From: Isoetes taiwanensis
Taxonomy: Eukaryota > Streptophyta > Lycopodiopsida > Isoetales > Isoetaceae
NCBI GenBank assembly: GCA_021234155.1
Contig: JAJEKV010000336.1
Location: 188,001 to 252,000, forward strand
Reading direction: 5' to 3'
Length of the DNA: 64,000 bases
Below are positions 42,250-63,776 of the stretch, piece by piece (positions within the stretch are counted from its first letter, which is position 1; each line of letters opens with the position of its first letter). The translations under genes and the position numbers were made by a program. A model generated the notes under the pieces. The model was not told the DNA's origin, did no database searches, and saw nothing but the letters and a program-made list of their open reading frames with translations.

Positions 42250-42278
42250 TCTTATATTATAATGTTTTACCGTAAGTG
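42250..42278 (+). mobile_element. Helitron 5' terminus (TC end), copy B
   Basis: Same A|TCTTATATTATAATGTTTTAC junction as at 7,922. The 3' end was not found. Confidence 0.5.
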
Positions 42279-44520: not shown

Positions 44521-44572
44521 ATGGGCTTGAAGCCTTGCATTTGTAGAGTGCTTGGTGTATAGTAGACCAAAG

Positions 44573-45030
44573 ATGGACGACAATAATGAACATAACTTAG
44601 GTATCCAAGACGTTGGCATCGTTGACAATAATGAACATAACTTAGGTATCCAAGACGTTGGCATCGTTATCAACCCTATGGTAAGACACGTTTTCTATTG
44701 CATCCAAAAAAAAAAGTGTCAAATTAACATCATGCTTTTGTTTTATAGGCACCCATAGAAAATGATACAGATAATGTGCTCCAACACATTGCTCAGCTGG
44801 AGCAATCAATCAATCATTTACATGGTTCAATGACGACATTTGACGTGAACTTGGATGAACGCCCCAACATCACGCTTCCACAATTGAATGCACTTCAAGC
44901 TACACTTCGTCAACACCTAAACGAACGAATCCAACAACATATTCTTGGCACCCGTTCATTTTTATCCTTTGTACAAAAATTACGAAAAGAGAAAATGCAA
45001 GAAATACAACATGAACGACGAAATCCATAG
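44573..45030 (+). CDS. Small two-exon protein with doubled 15-residue repeat
   Basis: The gene model is exon 1 at 44,573-44,680, an intron at 44,681-44,748 (GTAAG ... TTTTATAG), and exon 2 at 44,749-45,030, giving 129 residues. The junction is phase 0. Exon 1 carries two perfect copies of DNNEHNLGIQDVGIV. Exon 2 reads as amphipathic helix (LQHIAQLEQSINHL, then LPQLNALQATLRQHLNERIQ) and ends in a basic Lys/Arg/Glu-rich tail, suggesting a coiled-coil protein. The C-terminal half vaguely recalls type I MADS-box protein tails, but no MADS domain is present. The frame is open 14 codons upstream of the chosen ATG, so exon 1 could be internal. Copy A is broken. Confidence 0.45.
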
Positions 45031-45239
45031 CAAAGCTTGAGTTAGTTACCAACAACCTATAGGTCTAGATGATTGATTAGTGGATAATGTATGTCCTATT
45101 GTTCTGTTCCATAATTCTACTCACATTTTATGTGATATAAGAGAGAATTAGTGATAATACTACTGTGATATGAAGAAACGAAGTTTGTGCAATATGTGAG
45201 ATCATTGAATCATAACATCAATAAACATTTTCAGCCCAT

Positions 45240-45312
45240 CGCCATCCGGGGGGCTCGAACCCCTGACCACAAGATTAAGAGCCTTGCGCTCTACCAACTG
45301 AGCTAGGACAGC
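45240..45312 (-). tRNA. tRNA-Lys(CUU)
   Basis: 73 nt; anticodon CTT in loop CTCTTAA; acceptor GCTGTCC with GGATGGC; T loop TTCGAGC; no encoded CCA. Same sequence as the gene at 12,169. No T4 run lies close downstream. Confidence 0.82.
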
Positions 45313-45999
45313 AAGTGATATAATGAAAACAAATTTAATATGATGTACAAATGAAAGCACTATTTGTACATACTTTCAAATATATGAATCAGGGAGACTA
45401 TACATAGTACAGTTCTCTTATGCCCAATATTAGCTTGATTAGAGTGGCAACTACAGCACAGATATGACCTTTTAGATCTCCAAATCCCTATAGAATATCC
45501 AATTGAGTTCAACCTAAAAGCTCTACAATTTCAACTTGATCCTTATTTAGATCAATACACAGTTCTAATTGCCCCACACTCGTGTTTTTTGTCGCATAAA
45601 CCATAATCTATAAGAAGCCTAATTATCATGATACGCTCATTATAGACTCGAAGGAATCTAAAGCAACCTTTCTAGTACTTTCTTTGAAGGAATGCAACTT
45701 GGCTTTAAGCAACCTTGTAGTGCTTCCTAACCCAATTCCTAAAAGTGATTGTCTCTTAAGGCTAATGCACAACATAGATACATATACGAGTACTTTGTAA
45801 GGAGCCCAAATAGCATGAGCAGTTCGCATCGAACTCGAAGAAATCCAAGCTGAGATTAGCATTCTTTTTGTACCGCTGGGAGGAGACCAACTTGGCAGTA
45901 ACAACACCCGCCAATTTGGCGATGAGCAGACCTTTGAGTAAGGGATTCCGAAGCTCAAATGTCTCTGCCTTTGAGTAAGGGATTCCGAAGCTCACGTCT

Positions 46000-46223
46000 G
46001 GGCGTTTGGTCTAGTGGTAACACACTAGTTCCTTAGCAATGTGGTCTCGAGTTCGAGGCCGTCAGATCCGCTTTTCGATCGTTGGGGAGTCAAATCCCAA
46101 ATGGGCTAATGTAAAAGGTGGTTGGGGGCAGGGCCCAACCGAGCAATGTAGTGTGGTGTGTGGTCACATGTCCAGTTGGATGCTGCCTAGTGGCATGACG
46201 TTAAAACTACAATCTATCTATCT
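46000..46223 (+). mobile_element. tRNA-derived SINE, copy B
   Basis: Starts GGGCGTTTGGTCTAGTGGTA, has a B-box-like GAGTTCGAGGCC and an ATCTATCTATCT tail. Same insertion point as 11,638-11,860, with a changed middle region near GTCAGATCCGC. Confidence 0.7.
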
Positions 46224-46297
46224 CGATATGAACAACTTGAATGTGTGTATTAAGCTGTTTTAAATTAAACGTACAGAAATTAAAGTCCATATCTAAT

Positions 46298-46334
46298 CGC
46301 CATCTGGGAGACTCGAACCCACGACCACAACGGC
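46298..46334 (-). pseudogene. Truncated tRNA-Lys(UUU)
   Basis: Only the acceptor 3' side, T arm and a few bases of the 5' end remain. About 36 bp covering the D arm and anticodon is deleted relative to 11,940-12,012. Not functional. Confidence 0.85.
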
Positions 46335-46491
46335 AACACACAAATGAGCATTAAAATTTTCCATAATTCTACTCACATTTTATGTGATATAAGAGAGAAT
46401 TTGTGATAATACTAATGTGATATGAAGAAACGAAGTTTGTGCAATATGTGAGATCATTGAATCATAACATCAATAAACATTTTCAGCCCAT

Positions 46492-46564
46492 CGCCATCCG
46501 GGGGGCTCGAACCCCTGACCACAAGATTAAGAGCCTTGCGCTCTACCAACTGAGCTAGGACAAC
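46492..46564 (-). tRNA. tRNA-Lys(CUU)
   Basis: 73 nt, CTT anticodon. The 5' acceptor strand GTTGTCC against GGATGGC gives a T-G second pair instead of C-G, a slightly weaker stem. The rest matches 45,240-45,312. Confidence 0.75.
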
Positions 46565-47168
46565 AAGTGATGTAGTGAAAACAAATTTAATGCGATGTAC
46601 AAATGAAAGTACTATTTGTACATACTTTCAAATATATGAATCAGGGAGACTATACATAGTACAGTTCTCTTATGCCCAATATTAGCTTGATTAGAGTGGC
46701 AACTACAGCACAGATGTGACCTTTTAGATCTCCAAGTCCCTATAGAATATCCAATTGAGTTCAACCTAAAAGCTCTACAATTTCAACTTGATCCTTATTT
46801 AGATCAATACACAGTTCTAATTGCCCCACACTCGTGTTTTTTGTTGCATAAACCATAATATATAAGAAGCCTAATTATCATGATACGCTCATTATAGACT
46901 CGAAGGAATCTAAAGCAACCTTTCTAGTACTTTCTTTGAAGGAATGCAACTTGGCTTTAAGCAGCCTTGTAGTGCTTCCTAACCCAATTCCTATAAGTGA
47001 TTGTCTCTTAAGGCTAATGCACAACATAGGGACATATACGAGTACTTTGTAAGGAGCCCAAATAGCATGAGCAGTTCGCATCGAACTCGAAGAAATCCAA
47101 GCTGAGATTAGCATTCTTTTTTGTACCTGCTTGGGAGGAGACCAACTTGGCAGTAGCAACCTGCCAAC

Positions 47169-49657
47169 TTAAGGGTTTACAATAGAACAATTGGTGGAAG
47201 CAAGAGCCACTTTTCAAGAGTACACTGTTGATGAGAGGAGGACCTACATGTACACAATCTTTGAGCATGCACTTCAAGATGAAAGAAACCCAAACAGAAA
47301 AAGATACCCTTTGCTAGGCAAATGGATATGTGCAAAAGCATGGCAGAGTATCCATGCAATTCCAACTTCTTCATGGCATAATTGGCAAAAAAAACAGGCA
47401 GAGGGAAACAGGATTGCTTTACATGGAAATAATGGTTTGTTCAGACCAACAGCTAGGACCTTGGCTGCCAGGGAGATATTTGAAAAATATATTGATTTCA
47501 ATCAGTCTATGCCACACAAAAGTAGAAGGGATGAAAAGGGAAGAGCAGTTGTTGAGAAAAGGTTGCCATCACATTGTACTCAAAAGAGTATTTTGGAAGA
47601 AGTGAATTCCCTACTTCGAGAATTGGGAATTCTTCCAATATCCCAACCTAGCTTTAGTAGGTTATAGAAGAAGCATTTCAATCATGTCACCATAGCAACT
47701 TCAAACAACTTTGCAAAGTGCAATTTATGTGCTAAGTTGAAGGAGACTCTTGATAAGGCTGTGCAACCTAGTCAAAAGGGCTAGGATAAGGGGAGCATAT
47801 GAAGGACCATATGGTGACCAACTATCATGTAGATCATGTTATTGGATGTGGAGGACTTTTATCCGCATTGGAACCCAATAACTATTTATGTATTATACAT
47901 GACAAGATGGACCAGCAAAAGACTTGTCTTCCACAATTCAAGTACATACCAAAGTCATGTGGAAGATCATATCCTTTCTGAGATCTCAATGATGGGGCAA
48001 TCTTGCATGGGCGAGAATCAAACCTACTATGGCCATTTTAGTTTGGAGTTGTAGAGTGATGGTGAGATTTTCATATTGGGAGTATCATGAGGTGTTTGAG
48101 AAACTATGAAAATGGATACAATGGTCACCTCCGGGACCTTCTGACTAGCCGGGCACTACATAGAGCATTGTTAGATGGAAACCCTAACAATATTGAAAAG
48201 TTCAGCAAGGCAAGGTTTAGGAAGCATGGGTCTAATGAACATGTTGGAGCTTCAACTTCACGTGCTAAACCTCAAGATCTACCCAAAAAGGTTTCTCTTG
48301 CAACTTGATAATTGTCTTTGGCCAAAATAAAAACGGTGGATGTTTTCTTTCCTATCCTACTTAACGGTTTGTGGGGATATTTGAAAGAGTTAATTTATGG
48401 TTTCTTATGCCGGGCATACCCATGAGGATGTGGATGCATTATTTGGCAAATATAGTTGTATCTTGAAGCGACAAGCGGTGACCAACTTTCCTAGGCTAAT
48501 GGAAATCTTGCATGAATGCACTACCCCAAATCCTATAGCTTCTCTCATAGAAGAAGTGCCGATTGGAAGAGCTTTGTGGATGGTTATACATTGGATCTTG
48601 AAGGTGCAGTTCACTTTTTGGGTGAGAGATGGGATTCAATCTTCCAATGGAAGATGAGACCTTGAGAGGATGAGTGGAGAGGAGGGAGGAAATATGGCGT
48701 AGAGATGAGAATGGCAAGCCTATGATACCTCTAGGTCAACCAAAAGCTTTAAAACCCTCTTTGAAGAAGTGAAGCAATTGGGATTGACTAAGGAAGGAAT
48801 CCAAGACTATATAAAGCATTGGCAAACCAATCGGATGACACCAACCGTGCCTTGGTGGCTTTCTTTGGAAGAAGGTGATTAACTTTGTTGGGGAGATAGA
48901 CACATCCTCGGATGAATTGAAAGAAGGGTGGTTGCCTAAAACTAGGTGGAAGACCTTAGCGGTCTTTGAGGATTTTGATGACACCTTGTAAGTAGCATTC
49001 GCCAAGCAATATGCTCCTCCTCCTTCGACAAACACTATGTTGGTCCTAAGAACAATAGGCCAAAGTTTCTAGCATGGATGCTTATGAACCTTCCAACGAC
49101 TTGGAATGCCACCAATTTGTGGTAGTAAAGCCCGGCAGATTTAGATACATATCGGTGTGGTTGGGGTTCACTATCTCGATATTTGCAAAGAAGAAGGTAA
49201 TATTAACTTCAACCATGTGCGGGTGGAATGGTGGTGTCGGTGCATCAGTTGACCAACGTATCGGATAAAGAAAGGTACTCAGATTGTTGGACAAAGAAAT
49301 GGAGGAGAAATCCGACTGATCCTGATCTTTGGCTAGACAATGAAAGTGTTTTGTACTCATGGACTCAAAACACTATTCCAGCTAGAAATGCGAGAATTAC
49401 AATACCTCAGGATGTCAGGAAGAAGGCTATGATATCATTGGGGGTGCTTGAAGAAAGTTGAATAACTATGTAAATTTTTGTTATCACGTTTTTATGATAT
49501 GGTGCTATATTGTGAAATATTGACTATTTTGTAAATAACATGATATTACGTTTTCATAATTTTGAGGTTAAATGTGTGTATTTGAATATGCTACTAAAAA
49601 CATGCAATATGAAATTTGTCCCAAAATTAAGACATAAACCCAATTTAATTGAATGAT
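47169..49657 (+). pseudogene. DUF7869-like gene, broken by frameshifts and stops
   Basis: In order on the + strand: an open 158-codon stretch (47,191-47,667); FAKCNLCAKLKE, resembling the Cys pair before the family's core; IIHDKMDQQKTCLP at about 47,900, like the usual DGMDQ motif; LPKKVSLAT; GHTHEDVDALFGKYS at 48,412-48,456, the family hallmark; and a final open stretch 49,228-49,461. Several stops and frame changes separate them. The role of the family is not known to me; multi-copy occurrence suggests a mobile or domesticated element. It replaces array spacer sequence exactly between opposite-facing tRNA arrays. Confidence 0.65.
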
Positions 49658-49785
49658 GGTTATGATCTCACATATTGCACAAACTTCGTTTCTTCATATC
49701 ACAGTAGTATTATCACTAATTCTCTCTTATATCACATAAAATGTGAGTAGAATTATGGAAAATTTTAATTGCTTATTTGTGTGTT

Positions 49786-49858
49786 GCCATTCTAGCTCAG
49801 TTGGTAGAGCGCAAGGCTTTTAACCTTGTGGTCGTGGGTTCGAGTCCCCCGGATGGCG
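49786..49858 (+). tRNA. tRNA-Lys(UUU)
   Basis: 73 nt; acceptor GCCATTC/GGATGGC pairs fully with one T-G; D arm AGCTCAGTTGGTAGAGC; anticodon stem CAAGG/CCTTG with loop CTTTTAA; T loop TTCGAGT with one T-C mismatch in its stem; no CCA encoded. Internal A and B boxes are intact. No TTTT follows within about 70 bp. Confidence 0.88.
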
Positions 49859-50624
49859 ATTAGATATAGACTTTAATTTCTGTACGTTTAATTTAAAACA
49901 GCTTAATACACACATTCAAGTTGTTCATATCTTGTCGAGAGACATTTGAGCTTCGGAATCCCTTATTCAAAGGCAGAGACATTTGAGCTTCGGAATCCCT
50001 TACTCAAAGGCTGCTACTGCCAAGTTGGCGGGGTTACTCTTTGCCAAGTTGGTCTCCTCCCAGCGGTACAAAAAGAATGCTAATCTCAGTTTGGATTTCT
50101 TCGAATTCGATGCGAACTGCTCATGCTATTTGGGCTCCTTACAAAGTACTCGTATATGTCCCTATGTTGTGCATTAGCCTTAAGAGACAATCACTTTTAG
50201 GAATTGGGTTAGGAAGCACTACAAGGCTGCTTAAAGCCAAGTTGCATTCCTTCAAAGAAAGTACTAGAAAGGTTGCTTTAGATTCCTTCGAGTCTATAAT
50301 GAGCGTATCATGATAATTAGGCTTCTTATATATTATGGTTTATCGACAAAAACACGAAGTGTGGGGCAATTAGAACTGTGTATTGATCTAAATAAGGATC
50401 AAGTTGAAATTGTAGAGCTTTTAGGTTGAACTCAATTGGATATCCTATAGGGACTTGGAGATCTAAAAGGTCACATCCGTGCTGTAGTTGCTCTATTCAA
50501 GCTAATGTTGGGCATAAGAGAACTGTACTATGTATAGTCTCCCTGATTCATATATTTGAAAGTATGTACAAATAGTGCTTTCATTTGTACATTACGTTAA
50601 ATTTGTTTTCACTATATATCACTT

Positions 50625-50698
50625 GCCGTCCTAGCTCAGTTGGTAGAGCGCAAGGCTCTTAACCTTGTGGTCGGGGGGTTCGAGCCCCCCGGATGGCG
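50625..50698 (+). tRNA. tRNA-Lys(CUU)
   Basis: 74 nt; acceptor GCCGTCC/GGATGGC with one G-T; anticodon CTT in loop CTCTTAA; variable region and T arm read GTCGGGGGGTTCGAGCCCCCC, one G longer than the other copies, giving a full G-C T stem. It lies 158 bp before the UUU gene of the same unit. Confidence 0.88.
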
Positions 50699-50856
50699 AT
50701 GGGCTGAAAATGTTTATCGATGTTATGATTCAATGATCTCACATATTGCACAAACTACGTTTCTTCATATCACAGTAGTATTATCACTAATTCTCTCTTA
50801 TATCACATAAAATGTGAGTAGAATTATGGAAAATTTTAATTGCTTATTTGTGTGTT

Positions 50857-50929
50857 GCCATTCTAGCTCAGTTGGTAGAGCGCAAGGCTTTTAACCTTGT
50901 GGTCGTGGGTTCGAGTCCCCCGGATGGCG
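50857..50929 (+). tRNA. tRNA-Lys(UUU)
   Basis: Identical in sequence to 49,786-49,858. First TTTT downstream lies in the long spacer, hundreds of bases away. Confidence 0.88.
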
Positions 50930-51697
50930 ATTAGATATAGACTTTAATTTCTATACGTTTAATTTAAAACAGCTTAATACACACATTCAAGTTGTTCATA
51001 TCTTGTCGAGAGACATTTGAGCTTCGGAATCCCTTATTCAAAGGCAGAGACATTTGAGCTTCGGAATCCCTTACTCAAAGGCTGCTACTACCAAGTTGGC
51101 AGGTTGCTACTGCCAAGTTGGTCTCCTCCCAAGCAGGTACAAAAAAGAATGCTAATCTCAGCTTGGATTTCTTCGAGTTCGATGCGAACTGCTCATGCTA
51201 TTTGGGTCCTTACAAAGTACTCGTATATGTACCTATGTTGTGCATTAGCCTTAAGAGACAATCACTTTTAGGAATTGGGTTAGGAAGCACCACAAGGCTG
51301 CTTAAAGCCAAGTTGCATTCCTTCAAAGAAAGTACTAGAAATGTTGCTCTAGATTCCTTCGAGTCTATAATGAGCGTATCATGATAATTAGGCTTCTTAT
51401 AGATTATGGTTTATGCGACAAAAAACACGAGTGTGGGGCAATTAGAACTGTGTATTGATCTAAATAAGGATCAAGTTGAAATTGTAGAGCTTTTAGGTTG
51501 AACTCAATTGGATATTCTATAGGGACTTGGAGATCTAAAAGGTCACATCTGTGCTGTAGTTGCCACTCTAATCAAGCTAATATTGGGCATAAGAGAACTG
51601 TACTATGTATAGTCTCCCTGATTCATATATTTGAAAGTATGTACAAATAGTGCTTTCATTTGTACATTACGTTAAATTTGTTTTCACTATATCACTT

Positions 51698-51770
51698 TCT
51701 GTCCTAGCTCAGTTGGTAGAGCGCAAGGCTCTTAACCTTGTGGTCAGGGGTTCGAGCCCCCCGGATGGCG
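51698..51770 (+). tRNA. tRNA-Lys(CUU)
   Basis: 73 nt, CTT anticodon. The first acceptor base is T (TCTGTCC), losing the terminal pair with C; otherwise matches the family with a GTCAGGGG T-arm start. Confidence 0.75.
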
Positions 51771-51928
51771 ATGGGCTGAAAATGTTTATCGATGTTATGA
51801 TTCAATGATCTCACATATTGCACAAACTTCGTTTCTTCATATCACAGTAGTATTATCACTAATTCTCTCTTATATCACATAAAGTGTGAGTAGAATTATG
51901 GAAAATTTTAATTGCTTATTTGTGTGTT

Positions 51929-52001
51929 GCCATTCTAGCTCAGTTGGTAGAGCGCAAGGCTTTTAACCTTGTGGTCGTGGGTTCGAGTCCCCCGGATGGC
52001 G
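51929..52001 (+). tRNA. tRNA-Lys(UUU)
   Basis: Identical to the copies at 49,786 and 50,857. Confidence 0.88.
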
Positions 52002-52794
52002 ATTAGATATAGACTTTAATTTCTATACGTTTAATTTAAAACAGCTTAATACACACATTCAAGTTGTTCATATCTTGTCGAGAGACATTTGAGCTTCGGA
52101 ATCCCTTATTCAAAGGCGGAGACATTTGAGCTTCGGAATCCCTTACTCAAAGGCTGCTACTACCAAGTTGGCAGGTTGCTACTGCCAAGTTGGTCTCCTC
52201 CCAAGCAGGTACAAAAAAGAATGCTAATCTCAGCTTGGATTTCTTCGAGTTCGATGCGAACTGCTCATGCTATTTGGGTCCTTACAAAGTACTCGTATAT
52301 GTACCTATGTTGTGCATTAGCCTTAAGAGACAATCACTTTTAGGAATTGGGTTAGGAAGCACCACAAGGCTGCTTAAAGCCAAGTTGCATTCCTTCAAAG
52401 AAAGTACTAGAAAGGTTGCTTTAGATTCCTTCGAGTCTATAATGAGCGTATCATGATAATTAGGCTTCTTGTAGATTATGGTTTATGCGACAAAAAACAC
52501 GAGTGTGGGGCAATTAGAACTGTGTATTGATCTAAATAAGGATCAAGTTGAAATTGTAGAGCTTTTAGGTTGAACTCAATTGGATATTCTATAGGGACTT
52601 GGAGATCTCAAAGGTCACATAGTGCTTTCATGTCTTTGTAGTTGCCACTCTAATCAAGCTAATATTGGGCATAAGATCTGAAAAATCTTTCATTGCGTAC
52701 TATGTATAGTCTCCCTGCTTCATATATTTGAAAGTATGTACAAATAGTGCTTTCATTTGTACATTACGTTAAATTTGTTTTCAGTATATCACTT

Positions 52795-52867
52795 GCTGTC
52801 CTAGCTCAGTTGGTAGAGCGCAAGGCTCTTAACCTTGTGGTCAGGGGTTCGAGACCCCAGGATGGCG
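52795..52867 (+). tRNA. tRNA-Lys(CUU)
   Basis: 73 nt, CTT anticodon, acceptor GCTGTCC/GGATGGC. T loop TTCGAGA and T-stem 3' side CCCCA differ from the other copies, leaving a mismatch. The spacer before it holds extra CTTTC-containing insertions (about 52,620-52,700). Confidence 0.75.
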
Positions 52868-53025
52868 ATGGGCTGAAAATGTTTATCGATGTTATGATTC
52901 AATGATCTCACATATTGCACAAACTTCGTTTCTTCATATCACAGTAGTATTATCACTAATTCTCTCTTATATCACATAAAATGTGAGTAGAATTATAGAA
53001 AATTTTAATTGCTCATTTGTGTGTT

Positions 53026-53098
53026 GCCGTTCTAGCTCAATTGATAGAGCGCAAGGCTTTTAAACTTGTGGTCGTGGGTTCGAGTCCCCCGGACGGCG
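53026..53098 (+). tRNA. tRNA-Lys(UUU), diverged
   Basis: 73 nt with TTT anticodon. The D loop reads CAATTGATAGAGC, so the conserved GG is GA, and the anticodon stem 3' side is ACTTG, losing one pair. The acceptor GCCGTTC/GGACGGC is compensated. Possibly a pseudogene. Confidence 0.6.
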
Positions 53099-53817
53099 AT
53101 TAGATATGGACTTTAATTTGTGTATGCTTAATTTATAACAACTTAATATACACATTCAAGTTGTTCATATCTTGTCGAGAGACATTTGAGCTTCAGAATC
53201 CCTTACTCAAAGGCTGCTACTGCCAAGTTGCCATGTTGCTACTGCCAAGTTTGTCTCCTGCTCCAAGCAGGTACAAAAAAGAATGCTAATCTCAGCTTGG
53301 ATTTCTTCGAGTTCGATGCGAACTGCTCATGCTATTTGGGCTCCTTACAAAGTACTATGTTGTGCATTAGCCTTAACAGACAATCACTTTTAGGAATTGG
53401 GTTAGGAAGCACTACAAGGCTGCTTAAAGCCAAGTTGCATTCCTTCAAAGAAAGTACTAGAAAGGTTGCTTTAGATTCCTTCGAGTCTATAATGAGCGTA
53501 TCATGATAATTAGGCTTCTTATATATTATGGTTTATGGCGACAAAAAACACGAGTGTGGGGCAATTAGAACTGTGTATTGATCTAAATAAGGATCAAGTT
53601 GAAATTGTAGAGCTTTTAGGTTGAACTCAATTGGATATCCTATAGGGACTTGGAGATCTAAAAGGTCACATCCGTGCTGTAGTTGCTCTAATCAAGCTAA
53701 TGTTGGGCATAAGAGAACTGTACTATGTATAGTCTCCCTGATTCATATATTTGAAAGTATGTACAAATAGTGCTTTCATTTGTACATTACGTTAAATTTG
53801 TTTTCACTATATCACTT

Positions 53818-53890
53818 GCCGTCCTAGCTCAGTTGGTAGAGCGCAAGGCTCTTAACCTTGTGGTCAGGGGTTCGAGCCCCCAGGATGGCG
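53818..53890 (+). tRNA. tRNA-Lys(CUU)
   Basis: 73 nt, CTT anticodon, acceptor GCCGTCC/GGATGGC, T-stem 3' side CCCCA. Otherwise like the other CUU copies. Confidence 0.82.
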
Positions 53891-54048
53891 ATGGGCTGAA
53901 AATGTTTATCGATGTTATGATTCAATGATCTCACATATTGCACAAACTTCGTTTCTTCATATCACAGTAGTATTATCACTAATTCTCTCTTATATCACAT
54001 AAAGTGTGAGTAGAATTATGGAAAATTTTAATTGCTTATTTGTGTGTT

Positions 54049-54118
54049 GCCGTTCTAGCTCAGTTGGTAGAGCGCAAGGCTTTTAACCTTGTGGTCGTGG
54101 GTTCGAGTCCCCCGGATG
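54049..54118 (+). pseudogene. tRNA-Lys(UUU) split by Copia insertion
   Basis: All arms are normal up to GGATG in the 3' acceptor strand, where the retrotransposon begins. GGATG is repeated at 59,517-59,521 after the element and is followed by GCGATTAG, the normal tRNA 3' end and flank. The left part lacks the last two paired bases (GC) and the discriminator G, so mature tRNA is unlikely. Confidence 0.92.
54114..54118. repeat. Target-site duplication GGATG (left)
   Basis: Five bases matching 59,517-59,521 flank the Copia element, the usual length for Ty1/copia integration. Confidence 0.92.
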
Positions 54119-54857
54119 TGTTTGATTGTGAAATATCTTTACGAGAAACCAAGGCCAAGCTTAAACCAAACGCTGACTGTAACTTTGTATATTCAGAAAT
54201 ATCTTCAACAAACAACAAGCTTAAGGCAATACTGACTGTAATTCTATGTATTCAACAACTAATACAATGATTTTACCAGTCCGATTTGGGTCTCTAGATA
54301 TCGAGACTGAGATCTCCTTCTGCCACGAACTCCAGAGCAAAGCTAGTCACACGAAATCCAGAGCAACTCACAGTGATGCTTTCATAACCAAAACCTTCTC
54401 TCTGTACAAATGTGAACTGCGGACTGTGTTGCATCTGAGTGCATCGCCAATCGATCCTGCATCTTTATTTATAACAGGTCAATTCAAGACAATCAATTCA
54501 TGACAACCTCTTCCAGAATCCGGGTTGAGCAAGCGGCTGCGGAACCTGCAGCGGGATCCTATCCTCTTCTGGTCAACACCAGGAAATCAGCATTCGATCC
54601 AATGATCGATTCGATCTGCCACTCTGATTGGCCGACTGCTTTCTGACTGCTTTTCCCCTGTACGTACCCAGAGCCCAGAACGTCCCTTTTATTGTATTTC
54701 CTTTCCACCGACATGCACAAAAAGTGACATCTGTTTTTCCAATGTACATTATCCATACGTGCACAATAAAAAAACCATGGACCATTGCATATAGCATAAC
54801 CAATGAAATATGATTGCATATAGCATAACCAATGAAATATGGCATGATATACTAACA
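54119..54857 (-). repeat. 3' LTR of the Copia element
   Basis: 739 bp, starting TGTTTGATTGTGAAATATC and ending GATATACTAACA on the + strand. Nearly identical to 58,782-59,516. The end next to the CA holds a doubled GATTGCATATAGCATAACCA-like segment. Confidence 0.95.
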
Positions 54858-54867
54858 CTTCCCCTTC
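54858..54867 (-). other. Polypurine tract
   Basis: Minus strand GAAGGGGAAG lies directly against the 3' LTR, the normal site for plus-strand DNA priming in LTR elements. Confidence 0.85.
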
Positions 54868-57800
54868 ATGCCATATTATCTTTGAATAGCGTAAGTTTTG
54901 TTTCCGTCATGGCTTTAGTGAACAAGTCTGCGGCCTGATATGAAGTCTCCACATATTGCATGACAATCTCATTTTTAGAGACAAGATCTCGTATGAAATG
55001 AATATGTAATTCGATATGTTTAGTCCTCTCGTGATGCACAGGATTTCTTGCTATAGCAATACAACTCAAACTATCAGTCAGAAGCACTGTAGGATCAGTT
55101 TGAGGTATACCTATTTCAATCAACAATCTCCTTACCCAAATAATTTCTTTTGCAGCTAGGGATGATGCGGTATATTCTGCTTCTGCAGATGACATGGCAA
55201 CACATGATTGTTTTTTGCTTCTCCATGATATCAAACCTCCTGCAAGTATTAAGGCATAACCTGAAGTAGACTTTCTGGCATCAAGATCTCCTGCCCAGTC
55301 TGCGTCTGTGTAAGCAAATAAGGTCAGATTATCTGAATTGAATATAATTCCCTGGTTTTTCGTATCCTTTAGATATCTCAGAATTCTTTTGGCTGCAATC
55401 CAGTGAGCTTTTCCTGGATTGTTGTTGTACCTGCTTAGCAAATTTACTGCATAAGAAATATCTGGACGAGTGCAATTAGCCACATAAAGCAAACACCCAA
55501 TAAGTTCCCTATATGGAATATTCTCCATTTCCTTCTTTTCACATTCTGATGACGGGCAAAGACTAGCCGAGATTTTATATCCTGCTACAATAGGAGTACT
55601 CATTGGGTTTGCATTTTCTAGCCCAAATCTTTTTATCATATTTTCTATGTTCTTAGTCTGACAGAGCTTAAGCATTCTTTTTTCTTTGTCTCTGTTCATT
55701 TCAATTCCTAGGAATTGCTTCAATTCCCCCAGATCTGTCATTTTGAACCTTTGCTTTAGAATTTCCTTGCATTTTTCTAAGCATTGTATGCTATCTGCAG
55801 CCATTATGCAATCATCAACATATAGAGCGATAATGCAGAATTTACCTTTATGCCTCAGCATGTATATATTCCCATCATTATTAAGCTTTTCGAACTTTTG
55901 CTCGACCAAATACTTGTCCATGCATTTGTACCATTCCCTAGGTGCTTGCCTCAATCCATAAACTGCACGTTTTAACCTCCAAACCATATTTTCTCCTTCT
56001 TCAAAACCTGGAGCTTGTCTCATGTATATTTCTTCCTGCAGACTAGCATTTAGAAAAGCAGTTTTTACATCCATATGATGTACATCAAGTTTCATAGCAT
56101 TAGCTAGTGCTAAAACAATTCTTATACTTGTTAATTTCACAATCGGAGAATACGTCTCATCATAGTCTATTCCTTTCTTTTGAGAAAAACCTTGAGCAAC
56201 TAATCTTGCTTTGAACCTTTTTGACCCATCGGCATTTGTTTTGATTCTATAAATCCATTTGTTTCCAACCAAATTTTTATTTGCTGGACATTTTACTAGT
56301 TCATACGTACCAGTTTCTTTAAAAGATTCCATCTCTTCTTGCATTGCTTTCAACCATTCACTTCCCTTTTCTGTATGTATGGCTTCATGAAAGGATTTAG
56401 GCATCTCAGGTTCAAATACAGCCATCAAGGAAGGATATCTAACAGTAGGCTTTCCTATTCTCCTACTTTTACCAGTACCATATCTTCCATACATTTCGGG
56501 ATTATAGTCTATACCTGTATCTTTGAGTTTTTCTACCTCTGATTTCCTTTTTCGTTGCATTGCAGGTACGACTTCTGCTTGCGATGGTTGTGTCCCATCG
56601 TCGTGTCCTTCTACATTCTCATTGACTGCTTCATCTTCTTGGTCTGAATCTGTGTCAATAATGTCAGTCTTCTTTGAACCATTATGAACATTTGTGCTAT
56701 TATATTTACTTTCAATCTTGGAGTTTGTAACCTCATGCCTATCTTTATAAAATTTGTTCTCGTCAAAAATGACATCTCGACTAGTTATCACTTTCCTTGT
56801 TTTAGGTATAAAGATTCTATAACCCTTTGATTCCTCATCATAACCGACTAGGAATCCTATTTCTGCCCTATCATCCAATTTCTGTCTTAATTCCTCAGGT
56901 ACATGAACATATGCTAGACAACCATAAGCCTTGAAGTAATCATATGCATACCCTGGCTTACCTTTAGACCAAATTACCTCAGGTATATTACCATTTACGC
57001 TGCTTGATGGCAACTTGTTTTGTATAAAGAACACCGTTTTGACCGCTTCCTCCCACAAATAATTAGGCAGACCTGCAAATTTTATCATTGATCTTACAGC
57101 ATCCAGAACCGTTCTATTTTTTCTTTCAGCAACCCCATTTTGCTGTGGTGAATACCTACATGTTAGTTGCCTTCTTATTCCATGTTTGACACAAAACTGT
57201 TTGAATTTTGCTGCTAGATATTCACCTCCTCTATCAGATCTAATGCATTTAAGCTTACGCCCTGTTTGTGTTTCCATTTCGCTAACATACTGTGTAAATG
57301 CATCAAGTGCTTTATCTTTGGAAGGCAGCAGATAGCATTTTCCCATTCTACTGAAATCATCAATAAAGGATATGTAATATTTCTTACCCGTTCTTCCTTC
57401 TACATTTAAAGGCCCACAAAGATCGGTATGCACAAGGTCTAGAGGGCCTGCAGCTCTTTTCTTTGATCTGTTAAAGGGCAGTCTAGTTAACTTTCCTAAT
57501 ATGCATCCTGAACAAATAAACTTTTCACCTGTGTCATCTACTCCATGAATAAACCCCTTTTTCATCATGTACCTGATATTGTTTATATGTGTATGTGCCA
57601 GTCTGCTATGCCAAGTTGAAGCTGACGAAACTGACAACATATTTATACTTTGCAAGACTCTATTCGAGAACTGGAAGAGATTTCCCACACGTTTTGCAAA
57701 GAACTTTAGTTCACCATCAAACAATACTTTACACCCTTTTTTATCAAATCTTAGCTCATAGCCTAAATCAACTAGTTGGCACACAGATATGAGATTTTTA

Positions 57801-57961
57801 TATAACCCTGGAACACACAAAACATTTGAAATATTCACCCTATTTCCTTGCAAGTCAAATAACTTCAACATCCCTTTACCCATAATCTTCTGCAGATCTC
57901 CATTTCCTAACTGCACATGACTTAAATTTTTACTAGCACATATATCTAGATTATCTAGCAA
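54866..57961 (-). CDS. pol: Copia pol: integrase, reverse transcriptase, RNase H
   Basis: 1,031 codons open from a TTG at 57,961; no ATG is obvious, so this is expressed from gag or not at all. The start (LGNGDLQKIMGKG, NVLCVPGLYKNL) is the C-terminal part of the protease region; the DSG/DTG active site is absent. The zinc-binding pre-integrase motif has H118, H123, C150 and C153. The integrase triad is D180, D243 and E279 (D-x35-E). Reverse transcriptase spans about 535-780 with YVDD at 714-717. RNase H spans about 880-1,020 with D886, E927 and D963. It ends ADLFTKAM..FKDNMA. The frame is -1 relative to gag, with a short overlap at the junction. Copying steps look intact, but polyprotein processing would need a protease from elsewhere. 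Confidence 0.93.
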   Translation of the reverse strand: MLDNLDICASKNLSHVQLGNGDLQKIMGKGMLKLFDLQGNRVNISNVLCVPGLYKNLISVCQLVDLGYELRFDKKGCKVLFDGELKFFAKRVGNLFQFSNRVLQSINMLSVSSASTWHSRLAHTHINNIRYMMKKGFIHGVDDTGEKFICSGCILGKLTRLPFNRSKKRAAGPLDLVHTDLCGPLNVEGRTGKKYYISFIDDFSRMGKCYLLPSKDKALDAFTQYVSEMETQTGRKLKCIRSDRGGEYLAAKFKQFCVKHGIRRQLTCRYSPQQNGVAERKNRTVLDAVRSMIKFAGLPNYLWEEAVKTVFFIQNKLPSSSVNGNIPEVIWSKGKPGYAYDYFKAYGCLAYVHVPEELRQKLDDRAEIGFLVGYDEESKGYRIFIPKTRKVITSRDVIFDENKFYKDRHEVTNSKIESKYNSTNVHNGSKKTDIIDTDSDQEDEAVNENVEGHDDGTQPSQAEVVPAMQRKRKSEVEKLKDTGIDYNPEMYGRYGTGKSRRIGKPTVRYPSLMAVFEPEMPKSFHEAIHTEKGSEWLKAMQEEMESFKETGTYELVKCPANKNLVGNKWIYRIKTNADGSKRFKARLVAQGFSQKKGIDYDETYSPIVKLTSIRIVLALANAMKLDVHHMDVKTAFLNASLQEEIYMRQAPGFEEGENMVWRLKRAVYGLRQAPREWYKCMDKYLVEQKFEKLNNDGNIYMLRHKGKFCIIALYVDDCIMAADSIQCLEKCKEILKQRFKMTDLGELKQFLGIEMNRDKEKRMLKLCQTKNIENMIKRFGLENANPMSTPIVAGYKISASLCPSSECEKKEMENIPYRELIGCLLYVANCTRPDISYAVNLLSRYNNNPGKAHWIAAKRILRYLKDTKNQGIIFNSDNLTLFAYTDADWAGDLDARKSTSGYALILAGGLISWRSKKQSCVAMSSAEAEYTASSLAAKEIIWVRRLLIEIGIPQTDPTVLLTDSLSCIAIARNPVHHERTKHIELHIHFIRDLVSKNEIVMQYVETSYQAADLFTKAMTETKLTLFKDNMA

Positions 57962-58755
57962 AAGATTTCTTTACTTAGTTTTGGACAATCAACCTTTAAA
58001 TGTCCAACTTCATGACAGTAATAACAAGGACCAATGTTTTTTTCTACATATTCCTTTTTCCCTTTTGATTTCCCCACAAACAAGACATCAGAACTTTCTA
58101 TTTCACTTACTATCTTCTTTTGTTCCAGTTCTGTTCGCACCAATCTTTCTGCATCATCTCGATTCTTGGTGGTGGTTCTAATCATGATTGACAACACATC
58201 ATAATTTGAAAAAGCACGAGCTATTGCCAAAACTTGGAATTCATCACTCAACCTAGCTCCTGCTGCATCTAGATCAGCAAAAATATTATCTATCTTTGAG
58301 AAAAAATCAGTGATGTTCTCGTTTTCATCATATTTTAACAGCCTTAGTTCTCTGTCTAAAACATCCAACTGTGATGGTGATTTCTGTTCATACTTATTTA
58401 TAAGATATGTCCACATTTGTTGTGGGTTCATGCCTCTCAATCTTAACAAGATACTAGGTCCAACCTTGCAAGCAATTATTCCTCTTGCTTCTCTAATCTT
58501 GCTATCAGAATACAAAGAACTAGCTTCTGACTTACCAGAACCTTCTGCAGGTTTACTCCCACCTTCTCCAATCTTCATTTTACCAAGCTTTGCAAGTATC
58601 TCCTTTAAATCCTGTCCTTCCGGTGGCTGAACAATATCCATTAAACCTTCTGAATTTAGTACCTCTTCTATTTTTGTTTTCCAAACCTGAAAACCGGAAC
58701 CACCAGAATACACGTCAATTGCATTAAGCAGCGCAGCTCCGAACCTGGTAGTCAT
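57955..58755 (-). CDS. gag: Copia gag (capsid/nucleocapsid)
   Basis: 266 residues. I start at the ATG at 58,755 (MTTRFGAALL), just after the primer-binding site; an upstream open stretch runs into the LTR and is unlikely to be translated. The middle is the gag-polypeptide domain of Copia elements (QMWTYLINKYEQKS, then FFSKIDNIFADL). A CCHC zinc knuckle, CYYCHEVGHLKVDC, is near the C-terminus and binds genomic RNA in this family. The protein stops at TAG nine codons after the knuckle (PKLSKEIFC). Plant Copia elements usually read straight on into protease, so this early stop marks a deletion or frameshift. Confidence 0.9.
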   Translation of the reverse strand: MTTRFGAALLNAIDVYSGGSGFQVWKTKIEEVLNSEGLMDIVQPPEGQDLKEILAKLGKMKIGEGGSKPAEGSGKSEASSLYSDSKIREARGIIACKVGPSILLRLRGMNPQQMWTYLINKYEQKSPSQLDVLDRELRLLKYDENENITDFFSKIDNIFADLDAAGARLSDEFQVLAIARAFSNYDVLSIMIRTTTKNRDDAERLVRTELEQKKIVSEIESSDVLFVGKSKGKKEYVEKNIGPCYYCHEVGHLKVDCPKLSKEIFC

Positions 58756-58766
58756 GTTTTCTAACT

Positions 58767-58780
58767 TGGCTCTGATACCA
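58767..58780 (-). other. Primer-binding site, initiator tRNA-Met
   Basis: The minus strand reads TGGTATCAGAGCCA, matching 14 nt of the 3' end of plant initiator tRNA-Met including CCA, one base from the 5' LTR. This is the standard Ty1/copia primer. Confidence 0.95.
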
Positions 58781-58781
58781 C

Positions 58782-59516
58782 TGTTTGATTGTGAAATATC
58801 TTTACAAGAAACCAAGGCCAAGCTTAAACCAAACGCTGACTGTAACTTTGTATATTCAGAAATATCTTCAACAAACAACAAGCTTAAGGCAATACTGACT
58901 GTAATTCTATGTATTCAACAACTAATACAATGATTTTACCAGTCCGATTTGGGTCTCTAGATATCGAGACTGAGATCTCCTTCTGCCACGAACTCCAGAG
59001 CAAAGCTAGTCACACGAAATCCAGAGCAACTCACAGTGATGCTTTCATAACCAAAACCTTCTCTCTGTACAAATGTGAACTGCGGACTGTGTTGCATCTG
59101 AGTGCATCGCCAATCGATCCTGCATCTTTATTTATAACAGATCAATTCAAGACAATCAATTCATGACAACCTCTTCCAGAATCCGGGTTGAGCAAGCGGC
59201 TGCGGAACCTGCAGCGGGATCCTATCCTCTTCTAGTCAACACCAGGAAATCAGCATTCGATCCAATGATCGATTCGATCTGCCACTCTGATTGGCCGGCG
59301 CTTCATTTGCTTTTCTCCACATGCGTACCAGAGCCCGAGCGTCCCTTTTATTGTATTTCCTTTCCACCGACATGCACAAAAAGTGACATCTGTTTTTCCA
59401 ATGTACATTATCCATACGTGCACGATAAAAAAACCATGGACCATTGCATATAGCATAACCAATGAAATATGATTGCATATAGCATAACCAATGAAATATA
59501 GCATGATATACTAACA
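58782..59516 (-). repeat. 5' LTR of the Copia element
   Basis: 735 bp; differs from the 3' LTR by a few substitutions (for example ACAGATC for ACAGGTC, CTTCTAGTC for CTTCTGGTC) and by an indel-rich block at about 59,297-59,340. It is followed by the duplicated GGATG and the rest of the tRNA gene. Confidence 0.95.
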
Positions 59517-59521
59517 GGATG
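59517..59521. repeat. Target-site duplication GGATG (right)
   Basis: Second copy of the 5 bp target; it continues into GCGATTAGATATGG, the normal 3' flank of tRNA-Lys(UUU) in the array. Confidence 0.92.
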
Positions 59522-60292
59522 GCGATTAGATATGGACTTTAATTTCTTTATGTTTAATTTAAAACAGCTTAATACACACATTCAAGTTGTTCATATCTTG
59601 TCGAGAGACATTTGAGCTTCGGAATCCCTTATTCAAAGGCAGAGACATTTGAGCTTCGGAATCCCTTACTCAAAGGCTGCTACTACCAAGTTGGCAGGTT
59701 GCTACTGCCAAGTTGGTCTCCTCCCAAGCAGGTACAAAAAAGAATGCTAATCTCAGCTTGGATTTCTTTGAGTTCGATGCGAACTGCTCATGCTATTTGG
59801 GTCCTTACAAAGTACTCGTATATGTACCTATGTTGTGCATTAGCCTTAAGAGACAATCACTTTTAGGAATTGGGTTAGGAAGCACCACAAGGCTGCTTAA
59901 AGCCAAGTTGCATTCCTTCAAAGAAAGTACTAGAAAGGTTGCTTTAGATTCCTTCGAGTCTATAATGAGCGTATCATGATAATTAGGCTTCTTATAGATT
60001 ATGGTTTATCGACAAAAAAACAGTGTGGGGCAATTAGAGCTTGTGTATTGATCTAAATAAGGATCAAGTTGAAATTGTAGAGCTTTTAGGTTGAACTCAA
60101 TTGGATATTCTATAGGGACTTGGAGATCTCAAAGGTCACATCGTCTTTGTAGTTGCCACTCTAATCAAGCTAATATTGGGCATAAGAGAACTGTACTATG
60201 TATAGTCTCCCTGATTCATATATTTGAAAGTATGTACAAATAGTGCTTTCATTTGTACATTCACGTTAAATTTGTTTTCACTATATCACTTT

Positions 60293-60367
60293 ACGTTTCT
60301 AGCTCGGTTGGTAGAAGCGCAAGGCTTTTAACCTTGTGGTGGGGGTTGTTTGCTTCCCGGGATGGCG
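60293..60367 (+). pseudogene. Degraded tRNA-Lys of the array
   Basis: Sits where a CUU gene is expected but reads AGCTCGGTTGGTAGAAGCGC and GGCTTTTAACC, and the T arm is scrambled (GTGGGGGTTGTTTGCTTCCCGG). The changes lie at CAG, GAGC and GTCAG sites. Decay or poor base calling are both possible. Confidence 0.6.
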
Positions 60368-60528
60368 ATGGGCTGAAAATGTTTATCGATGTTATGATTC
60401 AATGATCTCACATATTGCACAAACTTCGTTTCTTCATATCCCTTTGGTAGTATTATCACTAATTCTCTCTTATATCACATAAAGTGTGAGTAGAATTATG
60501 GGAAATTTTAATTGCTTATTTGTGTGTT

Positions 60529-60614
60529 GCCATTCTAGCTCGGTTGGTAGAAGCTTTCAAGGCTTTTAACCTTAATTAGCTTTTCCCCTTTGAGGTTGAA
60601 GTCCCCGGATGGCG
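60529..60614 (+). pseudogene. Degraded tRNA-Lys(UUU) of the array
   Basis: The GCCATTCTAGCTCGG start and GGATGGCG end are present, but the D arm reads GAAGCTTTCAAGG and the T arm carries an insertion of about 13 bases. Not a functional tRNA as written. Confidence 0.65.
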
Positions 60615-61103
60615 ATTAGATATAGACTTTAATTTCTATATCGTTTAATTTAAAAGCGACTTAATACACACATTCAAGTTGTTCATATCTTGTCGAGAGA
60701 CATTTGAGCTTCGGAATCCCTTATTCAAAGGCAGAGACATTTGAGCTTGAATCCCTTACTCAAAAGGCTTTTGCTACTACCAAGTTGGCGGGGTTGTCCT
60801 TTCTTTGCCAAGTTGGTCTCCTCTAGAATGGTACAAAAAGAATGCTAATCTCGGCTTAGATTTCTTGAGTTCGATCTAACTGCTCATACTATTTGGGTCC
60901 TTACAAAGTACTTTCGTATATGTACCTATGTTGTGCATTAGCCTTAAGAGACAATCATTTTTTTTTAGGAATTGGGTTAGGAAGCACCACAAGGCTGCTT
61001 AAAATCCCAAGTTGCATTCCTTCAAAGAAAGTACTAGAAAGGTTGCTTTAGATTCCTTCCGGAGTCTATAATGGCGTATCATGATAATTAGGCTTCTTAT
61101 AGA

Positions 61104-62785
61104 CTAGTAGCGGTTTGTTGGGCCTTAGCGTTGGGTGTTCCATGTGAAAATTTGGGTTTTTTTCCCTTTCCCCTTCCTTTTTCCTTTCAACTTTCCAAGT
61201 TTCCCTTTTCATACTTTCCCCACCCTTTTGATTTGCCCCCAAAGCCCTATGCATTTTTTCCCTTTCTCTTTTTTCCTTTCCTTTCTCTTCTTTCCCCTTC
61301 TTTACATTTTTCCTTTTCCCCGTTCTTTTCCCTTTCCTTTTTTTCATATGCCTCTTTCCATTCCCTTTTCTCAACTTTCCATTTTTTTTTTTTATACCCT
61401 TTTTTCCTTCTTTCCCCATCCTTTCCAAATTTTCCCTTTCCACTTTCTCCTTTTTTGTTTGCCTTTTTCCTTTTTTTTCTTTTTCTTTTTTTTCAATCCT
61501 CTTTTTTCCCTTTTCTTTTTTTTTCTATTTCCTCACCCTTTCCCTTTTTTCCCTTTTTTTTCTCATCCCTCTTCATTTTTCTCCTTCCTCTTTTCCTCTT
61601 TTGCTATTCCTTGCTCCTACCCTTTGTCTATTCTACTTTCCCCCCCACCCTTTTCCTCCTTTTTCCATCCTTTCCCTCTTCCTTTTTTTCGATGCTCTTT
61701 TGCTTCCCTTTTCTCTTTCTTCACCCTTTTCTCTCTTCCCGCCCTTTCCTTTTTTTCTTTTTTTCGTTCCTTTTCCCAAGTTCTCTTTTTCCCTTTTCCC
61801 CTCTCTTTTCCTTTTTACTTTTTTCTTTTTCCCATGGACTTTGCAACCTTTTCTTATTTTCCCTTATTGGTTTTTCTCTCTTTTTCTCACCTTACTTCTT
61901 ACCCTTCAAAAGATTGCCATTTTTTCCTTTCCCCTTTTCTATTCTATTCCTTTTCGCCTATCTTTCCCTTTTTTTTTTCTCCTTCTCTTTCCTTTTTTCC
62001 TCTTACCTTTCTTTTATTCCTTTTCCTTTTTTTTAGCTTTTCCCTTTCATCGTTTTCCTTTTCCCTTCCCCTTTTCCGTTTTCCCTTTTCCTTTTTTCCC
62101 TTTTCATCCTTTTTTTCCTTTTCCTTCCCTTTTTTTTCCTTTTTCCCTTTTCCCTTTCATTTTTTTTCCTTTTTTGCTTCCCTTTTCCTTTTTTTTTCCC
62201 CTTTCATCTTTTTTCTTTTTTTCCTTCCCCTTTCCTTTTCCTTTTTCCCTTTCATCTTTTTTTCCTTTTTTTTCCTTTTCCTTTTTCCCTTTTCCCTTTT
62301 CCCTTTTCCATTTTTCATCCTTTCCCCTTTTCCTTTCCTTTTTCCTTTCATCTTTTTTTTTTTCCTTTTTCCCTTTTTTCCCCTTTTCCCTTTTTTTTTT
62401 TCCTTTTCCCTTTTTCCTTTTCCTTTTCCCTTTTCCTTTCATCTTTTTCCCTTTTCCTTTTCCTTTTTTTCCCTTTTCCCTTTCATTTTTTTTCCTTTTC
62501 CTTTTCCCTTTTCCCTTTTTTTTCATCATTTTTCCTTTTTCTTTTCTTTTTTCCTTTTCCCTTTCATCGTTTTCCTTTTCCCTTCCCCTTTTCTTTTCCC
62601 TTTTCCCGTTTTTTCCTTTTTTCCTTTTCCTTTTCCTTTTTCCTTTTCCCTTTCCCCCTATATTAAAGCCATAGTCAAGATGAAATTTTAGTTGAAGACA
62701 CGCACACATCATCTCCACCATTGGTCAATCAAATCCTCGACCCGTCCGATTTGGGGCGGTCCATTACTAACATTATAATATAAGA
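61104..62785 (-). mobile_element. Helitron filled with a homopurine tract
   Basis: On the minus strand it starts A|TCTTATATTATAATGTTAG at 62,785 and ends in CTAG at 61,104, inserted after A of the array spacer (CTTATAGA|CTAG against CTTATAGA|TTATGG). The hairpin before CTAG is imperfect. About 125 bp from the TC end the homopurine tract begins, the same arrangement as at 33,647. The right flank is T but does not resume the spacer, so the array was also broken here. Confidence 0.6.
61150..62658 (-). repeat. Homopurine tract, ~1.5 kb (pyrimidine on + strand)
   Basis: Almost pure C and T on the + strand, in CCCTTTTCC-type units with occasional CATC, CACC or GTTTT. Towards 62,650 the repeat becomes more regular. 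Frames of up to 518 codons rich in Phe, Ser, Pro and Leu run through it in several phases and reflect composition only. Confidence 0.95.
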
Positions 62786-63120
62786 TAAAACCGTGGCGTC
62801 GGTCATTGCACCGATTTTCCCGAGATCGCGCTAATTCCTCCCCTTTCGGACCTTTGTTTGTTCGTTTGTTATGGCCGATTGATTTGGCCACGTCACAAAG
62901 GAGGTGTCGTTTCAAGATTTTAACGTGGCATGGTTTGGTTTGGTATTAACGGATTTCATTTTGCGCTCTTCCGGTTCGAAGCGCGCAAAAGTTCGTGGAG
63001 CAAGCATTTTTGGAGCAAGCATTTTGTTGCTCATTATTATTATTATTATTTGTTTGAGAGGATTTCATCCGACCGTGCAATGATTTTCTTAATTTTTGGG
63101 CAGTTTTGATAGCTTTTGAA
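62786..63120. other. Leader of the tandem first-exon repeats
   Basis: After about 160 bp of unique sequence comes the repeated block TTTTGCGCTCTTC, a doubled GGAGCAAGCATTTT, a TTA microsatellite (63,032-63,051) and GAGAGGATTT, which recurs at 63,345-63,455. It looks like promoter or 5' untranslated sequence of the exon copies that follow. Confidence 0.5.
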
Positions 63121-63214
63121 ATGGCGAGATCCAAAAAGAACCGCCTCAAGAAGCGGCCGGTGACATTTGAATTTTAAATCGGTCTCATGAAGGGCCCGAG
63201 AGCGTCGAAGCTAG
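63121..63214 (+). pseudogene. First-exon copy 1 (degraded)
   Basis: Begins ATGGCGAGATCC and ends GTCGAAGCTAG|GTACATGG like copy 3, but the frame has a stop after TFEF and the part matching DPQQNR reads differently. About 18 bp (AAATCGGTCTCATGAAGG) is extra relative to copy 3. Confidence 0.5.
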
Positions 63215-63517
63215 GTACATGGCTCTCCTCAAATTTTATTTTCTTTAGGTTTAGGGCCGAATCTCTAGAGGGGAGCTTAGAGGAGAGCGGAGAGCAGATT
63301 ATCATTGTTCTTTTGTTGTTCAAACCGCCCCGCACATTATTTTCCTTGTTTTGCGCTCTTCATGGTTTTCGTCCTTCCGCAAAAGTTAAATGGAGCAAGC
63401 ATTTTGGAGCAAGCATTTTGTTGCTCATTATTATTATTATTATTTGTCCGAGAGGATTTTTCCTTTTTCCCGTGCAATGATTTTCTTAAATTTTGGGCGG
63501 TTTTGCTAGCTTTTGAA

Positions 63518-63612
63518 ATGGCAGAGATCCAATTTGAATCTGCCTCAAGAAGAGGCGGCATTTGAATTTGAAGTAAATCGGTCTCATGAAGGCCTTGAAC
63601 GTCTGAAGCTAG
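63518..63612 (+). pseudogene. First-exon copy 2 (degraded)
   Basis: Begins ATGGCAGAGATCC and ends CTGAAGCTAG|GTACATGG. It shares the extra CTCATGAAGG segment with copy 1 and is out of frame relative to copy 3. It is followed by the same intron-like block (CTCCTCAAATTTTATTTTC, CGAATCTCTAGAG). Confidence 0.5.
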
Positions 63613-63776
63613 GTACATGGCTCTCCTCAAATTTTATTTTCTTTAGGTTTAGGGGCGAATCTCTAGAGGGAGCTTAGAGGAGAGCGGACTATGATTATCA
63701 TTGTTCTTTTTGTTGTTCAAACCGCCTGCACATTATTTTTCCTAATATATCCTTAGTATAACAAGCGGATGAGGAA

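Follow-up and report, generated by a model that had tools for sequence, protein, structure and literature searches.

Tandem clusters of transfer RNA (tRNA) genes are on record in plants for proline, tyrosine-serine, isoleucine, and cysteine (PMC11700998, PMC12308677, PMC10701932). The tRNA-Cys cluster on Arabidopsis chromosome 5, for example, is described as four units of ~420 bp that are 84-94% identical (PMC10701932). In a survey of 50 plants, 39 species have identical tandem pairs, which cover all 20 amino acids, so tandem lysine (Lys) tRNA genes as such are already known, and Lys/Lys is absent from the isoacceptor pairs that the survey names (PMC12652284). In the amoeba Entamoeba invadens, the listing for an array unit written [NKQCK] includes both Lys anticodons, CTT and TTT, and nearly all tRNA genes of E. 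histolytica are stated to lie in such arrays (PMC2652664). Here, we describe a 64,000-nucleotide stretch of the Isoetes taiwanensis genome (contig JAJEKV010000336.1, positions 188,001 to 252,000; hereafter the window), in which units of 1.02-1.10 kb carrying tRNA-Lys(CUU) and tRNA-Lys(UUU) stand in tandem from 49662 to 61106. We consider it probable that this is a local plant-type cluster of tRNA genes (tDNAs) whose copies are mostly drifting, probably silent duplicates.

The array extends over ~5.7 units (0.90 + 4 + 0.76) with both ends inside the window: in the coordinates of unit 2, which serves as the reference for unit positions, unit 1 begins at position ~110 and unit 6 stops at ~783. 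Unit 2 measures 1073 bp, unit 3 1097 bp, and unit 4 1023 bp, and unit 5 minus a Copia insert measures 1072-1075 bp according to the placement of its end. Both ARAGORN and Rfam (RF00005) recover the tandem order of the original prediction, Lys(CUU) then Lys(UUU) in each unit, and the gap between the two genes, which had been put at ~160 bp, is 156 bp in unit 2. Along the array, the genes read UUU, CUU, UUU, CUU, UUU, CUU, UUU, CUU, UUU (cut). Over 77 bp, the CUU and UUU genes of a unit share 92% identity, and self-comparison of the unit turned up no long repeat other than this gene pair. These tandemly repeated tRNA genes lie less than 1 kb apart, the spacing that defines a plant nuclear tDNA cluster and on which we base the term here; a stricter definition asks for three tDNAs per kb (PMC11700998). 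The expectation of at least five consecutive units of ~1.07 kb was right as to number but overlooked that 54119-59516 is a Copia element and that unit 6 is aberrant. In this last unit, the gene at the CUU position has the anticodon TTT and was missed by both programs. Small insertions, commonly of CTTT type, are also numerous in unit 6, in contrast to most other units, and may be real decay or assembly consensus error; similar oddities touch parts of units 3 and 5.

ARAGORN lists 14 tRNA genes in the window, all of them tRNA-Lys, and Rfam gives 14 tRNA matches, of which 13 are common to both lists; a 90-nt form of the unit-6 UUU gene (60526/60527) is found by ARAGORN alone and the cut copy 54051-54118 by Rfam alone. 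There are 18 tRNA-Lys gene positions, 13 of them full-length and found by both programs and five broken or degenerate (10875, 46298, 54048, 60295, and 60526). Eight array genes are found by both programs (49785, 50624, 50856, 51697, 51928, 52794, 53025, and 53817; 48.7-66.9 bits in Rfam), and a ninth, the UUU gene at 54048-54118, ends at the Copia border. Rfam E-values range from 5.4e-5 to 2.3e-12, which rules out chance matches. The array also illustrates that the tRNA counts of gene finders can be inflated by drifting tandem copies.

The T stem of a eukaryotic tRNA-Lys is normally fully paired. In this window, none of the 13 full-length copies has a flawless standard cloverleaf. Under a fixed cloverleaf, 12 of them have at least one T-stem mismatch: the six UUU genes share one position and six of the seven CUU genes another. 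The CUU gene at 50624 pairs fully only when one G is skipped in a run of six. Extra mismatches occur in the acceptor stem of 51697 and 11939, in the anticodon stem of 53025, and in two stems of 33027. Flanking signals were counted in 16 copies (the 13 full-length and three degenerate ones, leaving out the Copia-cut and internally deleted copies). A run of four T (T4) within 50 nt downstream is present in a single copy, 33027-33101, and no copy has CAA in the 50 nt upstream; six of the seven full-length CUU genes reach their first T4 only 134-135 nt downstream, immediately ahead of the UUU gene. Figures given for flowering-plant tDNAs are 67-73% with poly(T) and 79-82% with CAA (PMC11700998). 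Since nearly all copies lack the downstream poly(T) and the upstream CAA, despite their internal RNA polymerase III (Pol III) boxes, most of them may be silent or only weakly transcribed.

Working tRNA genes are generally more conserved than their flanks, and here the genes appear no more constant than their surroundings, with no extra conservation detectable. In matched stretches of the full units 2-5, 10 of 147 gene sites are variable (6.8%) vs 48 of 921 spacer sites (5.2%; p = 0.43). A wider set of 7-9 copies per stretch, which leaves out the aberrant m10 and u6 and the tRNA-less h14, h15, m35, and m0, gives 18/147 vs 110/921 (p = 0.89), and the genes appear even more variable when m10 and u6 are added back. 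The inter-gene spacer (50700-50855 and its copies) varies less than any other stretch of the unit, with 6/131 variable sites vs 7/74 in CUU genes (seven matched copies, p = 0.23) and 5/122 vs 7/73 in UUU genes (six matched copies, p = 0.14). An apparent excess of variation in UUU genes over this spacer (11/73 vs 6/155, p = 0.005), obtained with unequal copy sets, disappeared once the copies were matched. A dicistronic tRNA-snoRNA arrangement was considered and dropped: an Rfam search of 50600-51800 with E-values up to 5 returned no small nucleolar RNA at the gathering score, the sub-threshold matches reaching 22.9 and 19.9 bits vs a cut-off of 45, both on the opposite strand. The inter-gene spacer also folds no better than its shuffles (z = 0.62; 152 of 200 shuffles equal or better). 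A conserved gene in spacer 2, where open reading frames (ORFs) of 118-121 aa lie at 35249-35605, 45626-45991, and 53147-53506, was rejected as well. The one ORF checked, 53147-53506, has no Pfam match, and in units 2, 3, 5, and 6 the region is one base short relative to units 1 and 4.

Several points weigh against the view that most copies are relics. The Rfam scores of the 13 full-length genes (40-67 bits) all exceed the 29-bit gathering cut-off, and loose forms of the A- and B-box patterns match all 13 (loosely so in 53025, whose A box is short of one G). Of the 16 copies, 10 have a TATA in the 50 nt upstream, a stretch of 72-78% A+T; this exceeds the 22-32% reported for the TATA box in flowering-plant tDNAs, which was obtained with PlantCARE, a method other than ours (PMC11700998). 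The same three features would suit a working supply array, transcribed perhaps in certain tissues and meeting lysine-codon demand, in the manner of the Arabidopsis Ser-Tyr-Tyr (SYY) cluster, which is described as silent in most tissues and active in root cap cells (PMC12308677). In addition, flanking signals are lacking in a fair share of the plant tDNAs rated high-confidence (PMC11700998), and in the Arabidopsis Cys cluster nearly every gene is rated high-confidence even though mispaired stems are frequent, 11 of 13 unique tRNA-Cys transcripts having given signal (PMC10701932). The UUU copies at 49785, 50856, and 51928 (units 1-3) are identical in sequence. The copies are young and their substitutions few, so that moderate constraint on the genes may still exist, and because the 16 copies derive from two founders, the flank counts amount to about two independent facts rather than sixteen. 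Nevertheless, a working array seems unlikely, as its genes are not conserved above the spacers, each of the 13 full-length genes has a T-stem mismatch or an extra base, and T4 and CAA stand at 1/16 and 0/16. The upstream A+T and TATA would speak for a plant-type promoter, and the missing CAA and poly(T) would speak against normal expression. By analogy with SYY, one might also picture the two Lys isoacceptors as one unit, switched on in particular cells as a lysine counterpart of the Ser-Tyr-Tyr cluster; we think this very unlikely. On whether most copies are pseudogenes, an outcome that the original prediction named, together with a lack of mature tRNA carrying their variants, as refuting it, the evidence is divided: there is no flawless cloverleaf and the genes vary like spacers, but every full-length copy passes the Rfam cut-off.

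The near-identity of the units had been taken as a sign of ongoing homogenisation, which the comparison of copies does not bear out. With substitutions only and gaps ignored, units 1-5 are 95.2-97.9% identical in pairs (2.1-4.8% substitutions), and unit 6 is 88.1-92.6% identical to them. Differences between identity within the array and identity to the reverse copies elsewhere in the window are below one point and run in both directions. Over unit positions 1-208, the means are 97.83% within the array vs 97.22% between array and reverse copies, the three reverse copies being 98.5-100% identical to each other, and over 395-1073 they are 96.12% vs 95.75%; over 470-1073, however, array units average 95.94% among themselves (93.0-98.0, 10 pairs) and 96.35% with the reverse copies (94.5-99.0, 15 pairs). 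Local grouping therefore appears mixed, slight in part of the unit and none elsewhere, and these alignments do not demonstrate upkeep of uniformity. These figures also bear on the idea that the array is the edge of a long satellite located elsewhere in the genome and under ongoing concerted evolution, the window holding an outlying piece. Copies at several places and in several orientations, the within-array excess of 0.6 and 0.4 points in the first two stretches, and the three identical UUU genes would fit such an origin, but both array ends lie within the window and over 470-1073 the array units are further from one another than from the reverse copies, and we give it very little credence. 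The word satellite, used in the original prediction, likewise sits poorly with an array so short and, in this window, visibly bounded on both sides.

Outside the array, unit copies are partial. Reverse copies do occur at 10.9-15.3 and 45.1-47.2 kb, as had been noted, but they are partial and rearranged, and 14567-15793 is an inverted pair, whose arm 14567-15261 is tRNA-less and whose arm 15262-15793 has just the last few nucleotides of UUU. In 45107-47170, one UUU gene has an internal deletion and the other is absent. Three fragments had gone unmentioned: 669-1089, 35205-35628, and 32951-33654, the last with a UUU gene that scores lowest (40.1 bits) among the 14 Rfam matches. The copies at 10741-12309 and 45107-47170 fall within an 11-kb duplication (1301-12309 / 35648-46631; 91.6% identity) or at its edge. 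Several break points, namely those of Copia, both arms of the inverted pair, and two fragments that look like one duplicated event, fall at unit positions 299-325, at or just past the 3' end of the UUU gene.

Such scattering of unit fragments through the window could also point to a mobile element whose Pol III promoter derives from a tRNA, either a Helenus-type terminal-repeat retrotransposon in miniature (TRIM) or a short interspersed element (SINE), turned tandem, for example, by recombination between its long terminal repeats (LTRs). Helenus LTRs are reported to hold tRNA-like sequence, which in wasps and molluscs was aligned to tRNA-Lys, and one zebrafish Helenus family is noted to form tandem arrays (PMC10886601). 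However, the sole long direct repeat in the unit is the 77-bp tRNA itself and not a longer LTR pair, and the unit has no convincing primer-binding site (PBS), the best candidate having 3 mismatches in 12 bases. The isolated copies are ragged-ended with no convincing target-site duplication (TSD), the longest word common to both edges being 5 bases, in one of seven cases and of A+T only. The only plant Helenus described in that source combines LTRs of 120 bp with an internal part of 85 bp (PMC10886601). A Helenus/TRIM origin was rejected on the repeat, the PBS, and the TSD, and a mobile origin of either type seems highly improbable to us.

Other features lie beside these copies. Both 11-kb duplicates, and no other part of the window, contain an insert of ~225 bp that carries A and B boxes of tRNA type together with an ATCT-like tail and is SINE-like by eye; the two inserts are 90.7% identical, and no clear target duplication was found around them. 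The second duplicate carries an ABC-transporter fragment (37646-37978, Pfam ABC_tran). Polypurine/polypyrimidine tracts of more than 1 kb (~33731-35100 and 61230-62660) are close to where unit fragments and the array end, a 397-bp tandem repeat of 1.9 copies is at 62984-63739 near the window end, and a separate tandem of three ~1.8-kb units, ~90% identical, occupies 27031-32541.

The insert at 54119-59516 has the LTRs, 5-bp TSD, PBS, gag, and integrase preceding reverse transcriptase by which a Ty1/copia element is recognised. It is 5.4 kb long, has TG...CA ends, and is flanked by a target duplication of GGATG; its LTRs differ by 14 mismatches and 6 gaps in 740 (97.3% identity). Its primer-binding site, TGGTATCAGAGC, is of the initiator-methionine (iMet) type, and we take it to be typical of plant Copia; together with the SINE-like insert, it would fit a plant host. 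Pfam matches are, in order, a copia-type gag, an integrase core, and the RVT_2 reverse transcriptase, with gag and pol in separate open frames. The array documents a Copia insertion within a tRNA gene.

Taken as a local cluster of drifting duplicates, the locus may have arisen in a few steps. A segment of ~1.07 kb with closely related CUU and UUU genes would have been duplicated in tandem, with inverted and dispersed fragments in addition, presumably by ordinary (unequal) recombination. The copies would then have drifted, and the Copia retrotransposon entered one UUU gene. Most copies would now be relics, either silent or transcribed at a low level, and their contribution to cellular lysine tRNA would be small.

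Table 1. Features of the tRNA-Lys array and its copies, in window coordinates.
Feature	Position	Strand	Details
tRNA-less fragment	669-1089	-	unit ~325-805; within 544-1298, which matches 35080-35837
Reverse partial copies	10741-12309	-	CUU 12168-12242; UUU 11939-12013; degenerate CUU 10875-10949; SINE-like insert 11633-11857
Head-to-head inverted pair of unit fragments	14567-15261; 15262-15793	-; +	junction just after UUU gene
Isolated fragment	32951-33654	+	unit 157-897; UUU gene 33027-33101
tRNA-less fragment	35205-35628	-	unit ~323-805
Reverse partial copies	45107-47170	-	CUU 45239-45313, 46491-46565; UUU remnant ~46298-46334; SINE-like insert 45995-46220
Unit 1, partial	49662-50623	+	from unit position ~110; UUU 49785-49859
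Unit 2, reference	50624-51696	+	CUU 50624-50699 (one extra G); UUU 50856-50930
Unit 3	51697-52793	+	CUU 51697-51771 (broken first acceptor pair); UUU 51928-52002
Unit 4	52794-53816	+	CUU 52794-52868; UUU 53025-53099 (anticodon-stem and T-stem mismatches, D-loop changes)
Unit 5, first part	53817-54118	+	CUU 53817-53891; UUU from 54048, interrupted by Copia
Ty1/copia-type LTR retrotransposon	54119-59516	-	inside unit-5 UUU gene; LTRs 54119-54857, 58782-59516
Unit 5, second part	59517-60294	+	opens with second copy of 5-bp TSD
Unit 6, partial, aberrant	60295-61106	+	two degenerate tRNA genes; array end

How the locus stands among known systems can be judged from several sides. An exact 35-base spacer pattern had no match in a viral collection, and a bacterial contig from a metagenome-assembled genome that matched a 27-base Lys-tRNA pattern, and in which ARAGORN lists 11 tRNA genes, was set aside as unrelated by context. 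The array lacks the identical sequence of same-anticodon tandem genes by which the 50-plant survey defined its cases (PMC12652284); the CUU copies of units 2-5 are all different from one another. That no alternating array of Lys isoacceptors is known, as had been supposed, agrees for plants with the tRNA-cluster literature as covered here, in which we met none, a scope that leaves out the supplementary tables of PMC12652284, where one could be listed; it does not hold beyond plants, as E. invadens [NKQCK] is likewise a tandem unit with both Lys anticodons, although in an amoeba and, by its letters, with Asn, Gln, and Cys genes as well (PMC2652664). The human tRNA variable number tandem repeat (VNTR) at 1q23.3 also consists of tandem tRNA-bearing units, but these are GC-rich, 7.3 kb long, and present in 9-43 copies per allele, and conservation between human and mouse is reported there as confined to the tRNA genes and a CTCF site, unlike here (PMC4041453). 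Among plants, the Arabidopsis SYY and Pro clusters and the Zea Ile cluster are tandem nuclear tDNA as well, the SYY unit likewise holding several tRNA genes, although they serve other amino acids and have more repeats (PMC12308677, PMC11700998); for SYY, in contrast to this locus, tissue-specific expression has been shown, and its deletion alters a transgenic glycoprotein (PMC12308677). The Arabidopsis Cys cluster differs in its host and in having one anticodon per unit and nearly all genes high-confidence, but it resembles this locus as a small tandem array with an edge pseudogene, transposable elements annotated in the region, and mispaired stems in a significant share of its repeats (PMC10701932). 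The Isoetes array is a short tandem tRNA-Lys cluster, real but ordinary, and of a kind already known.

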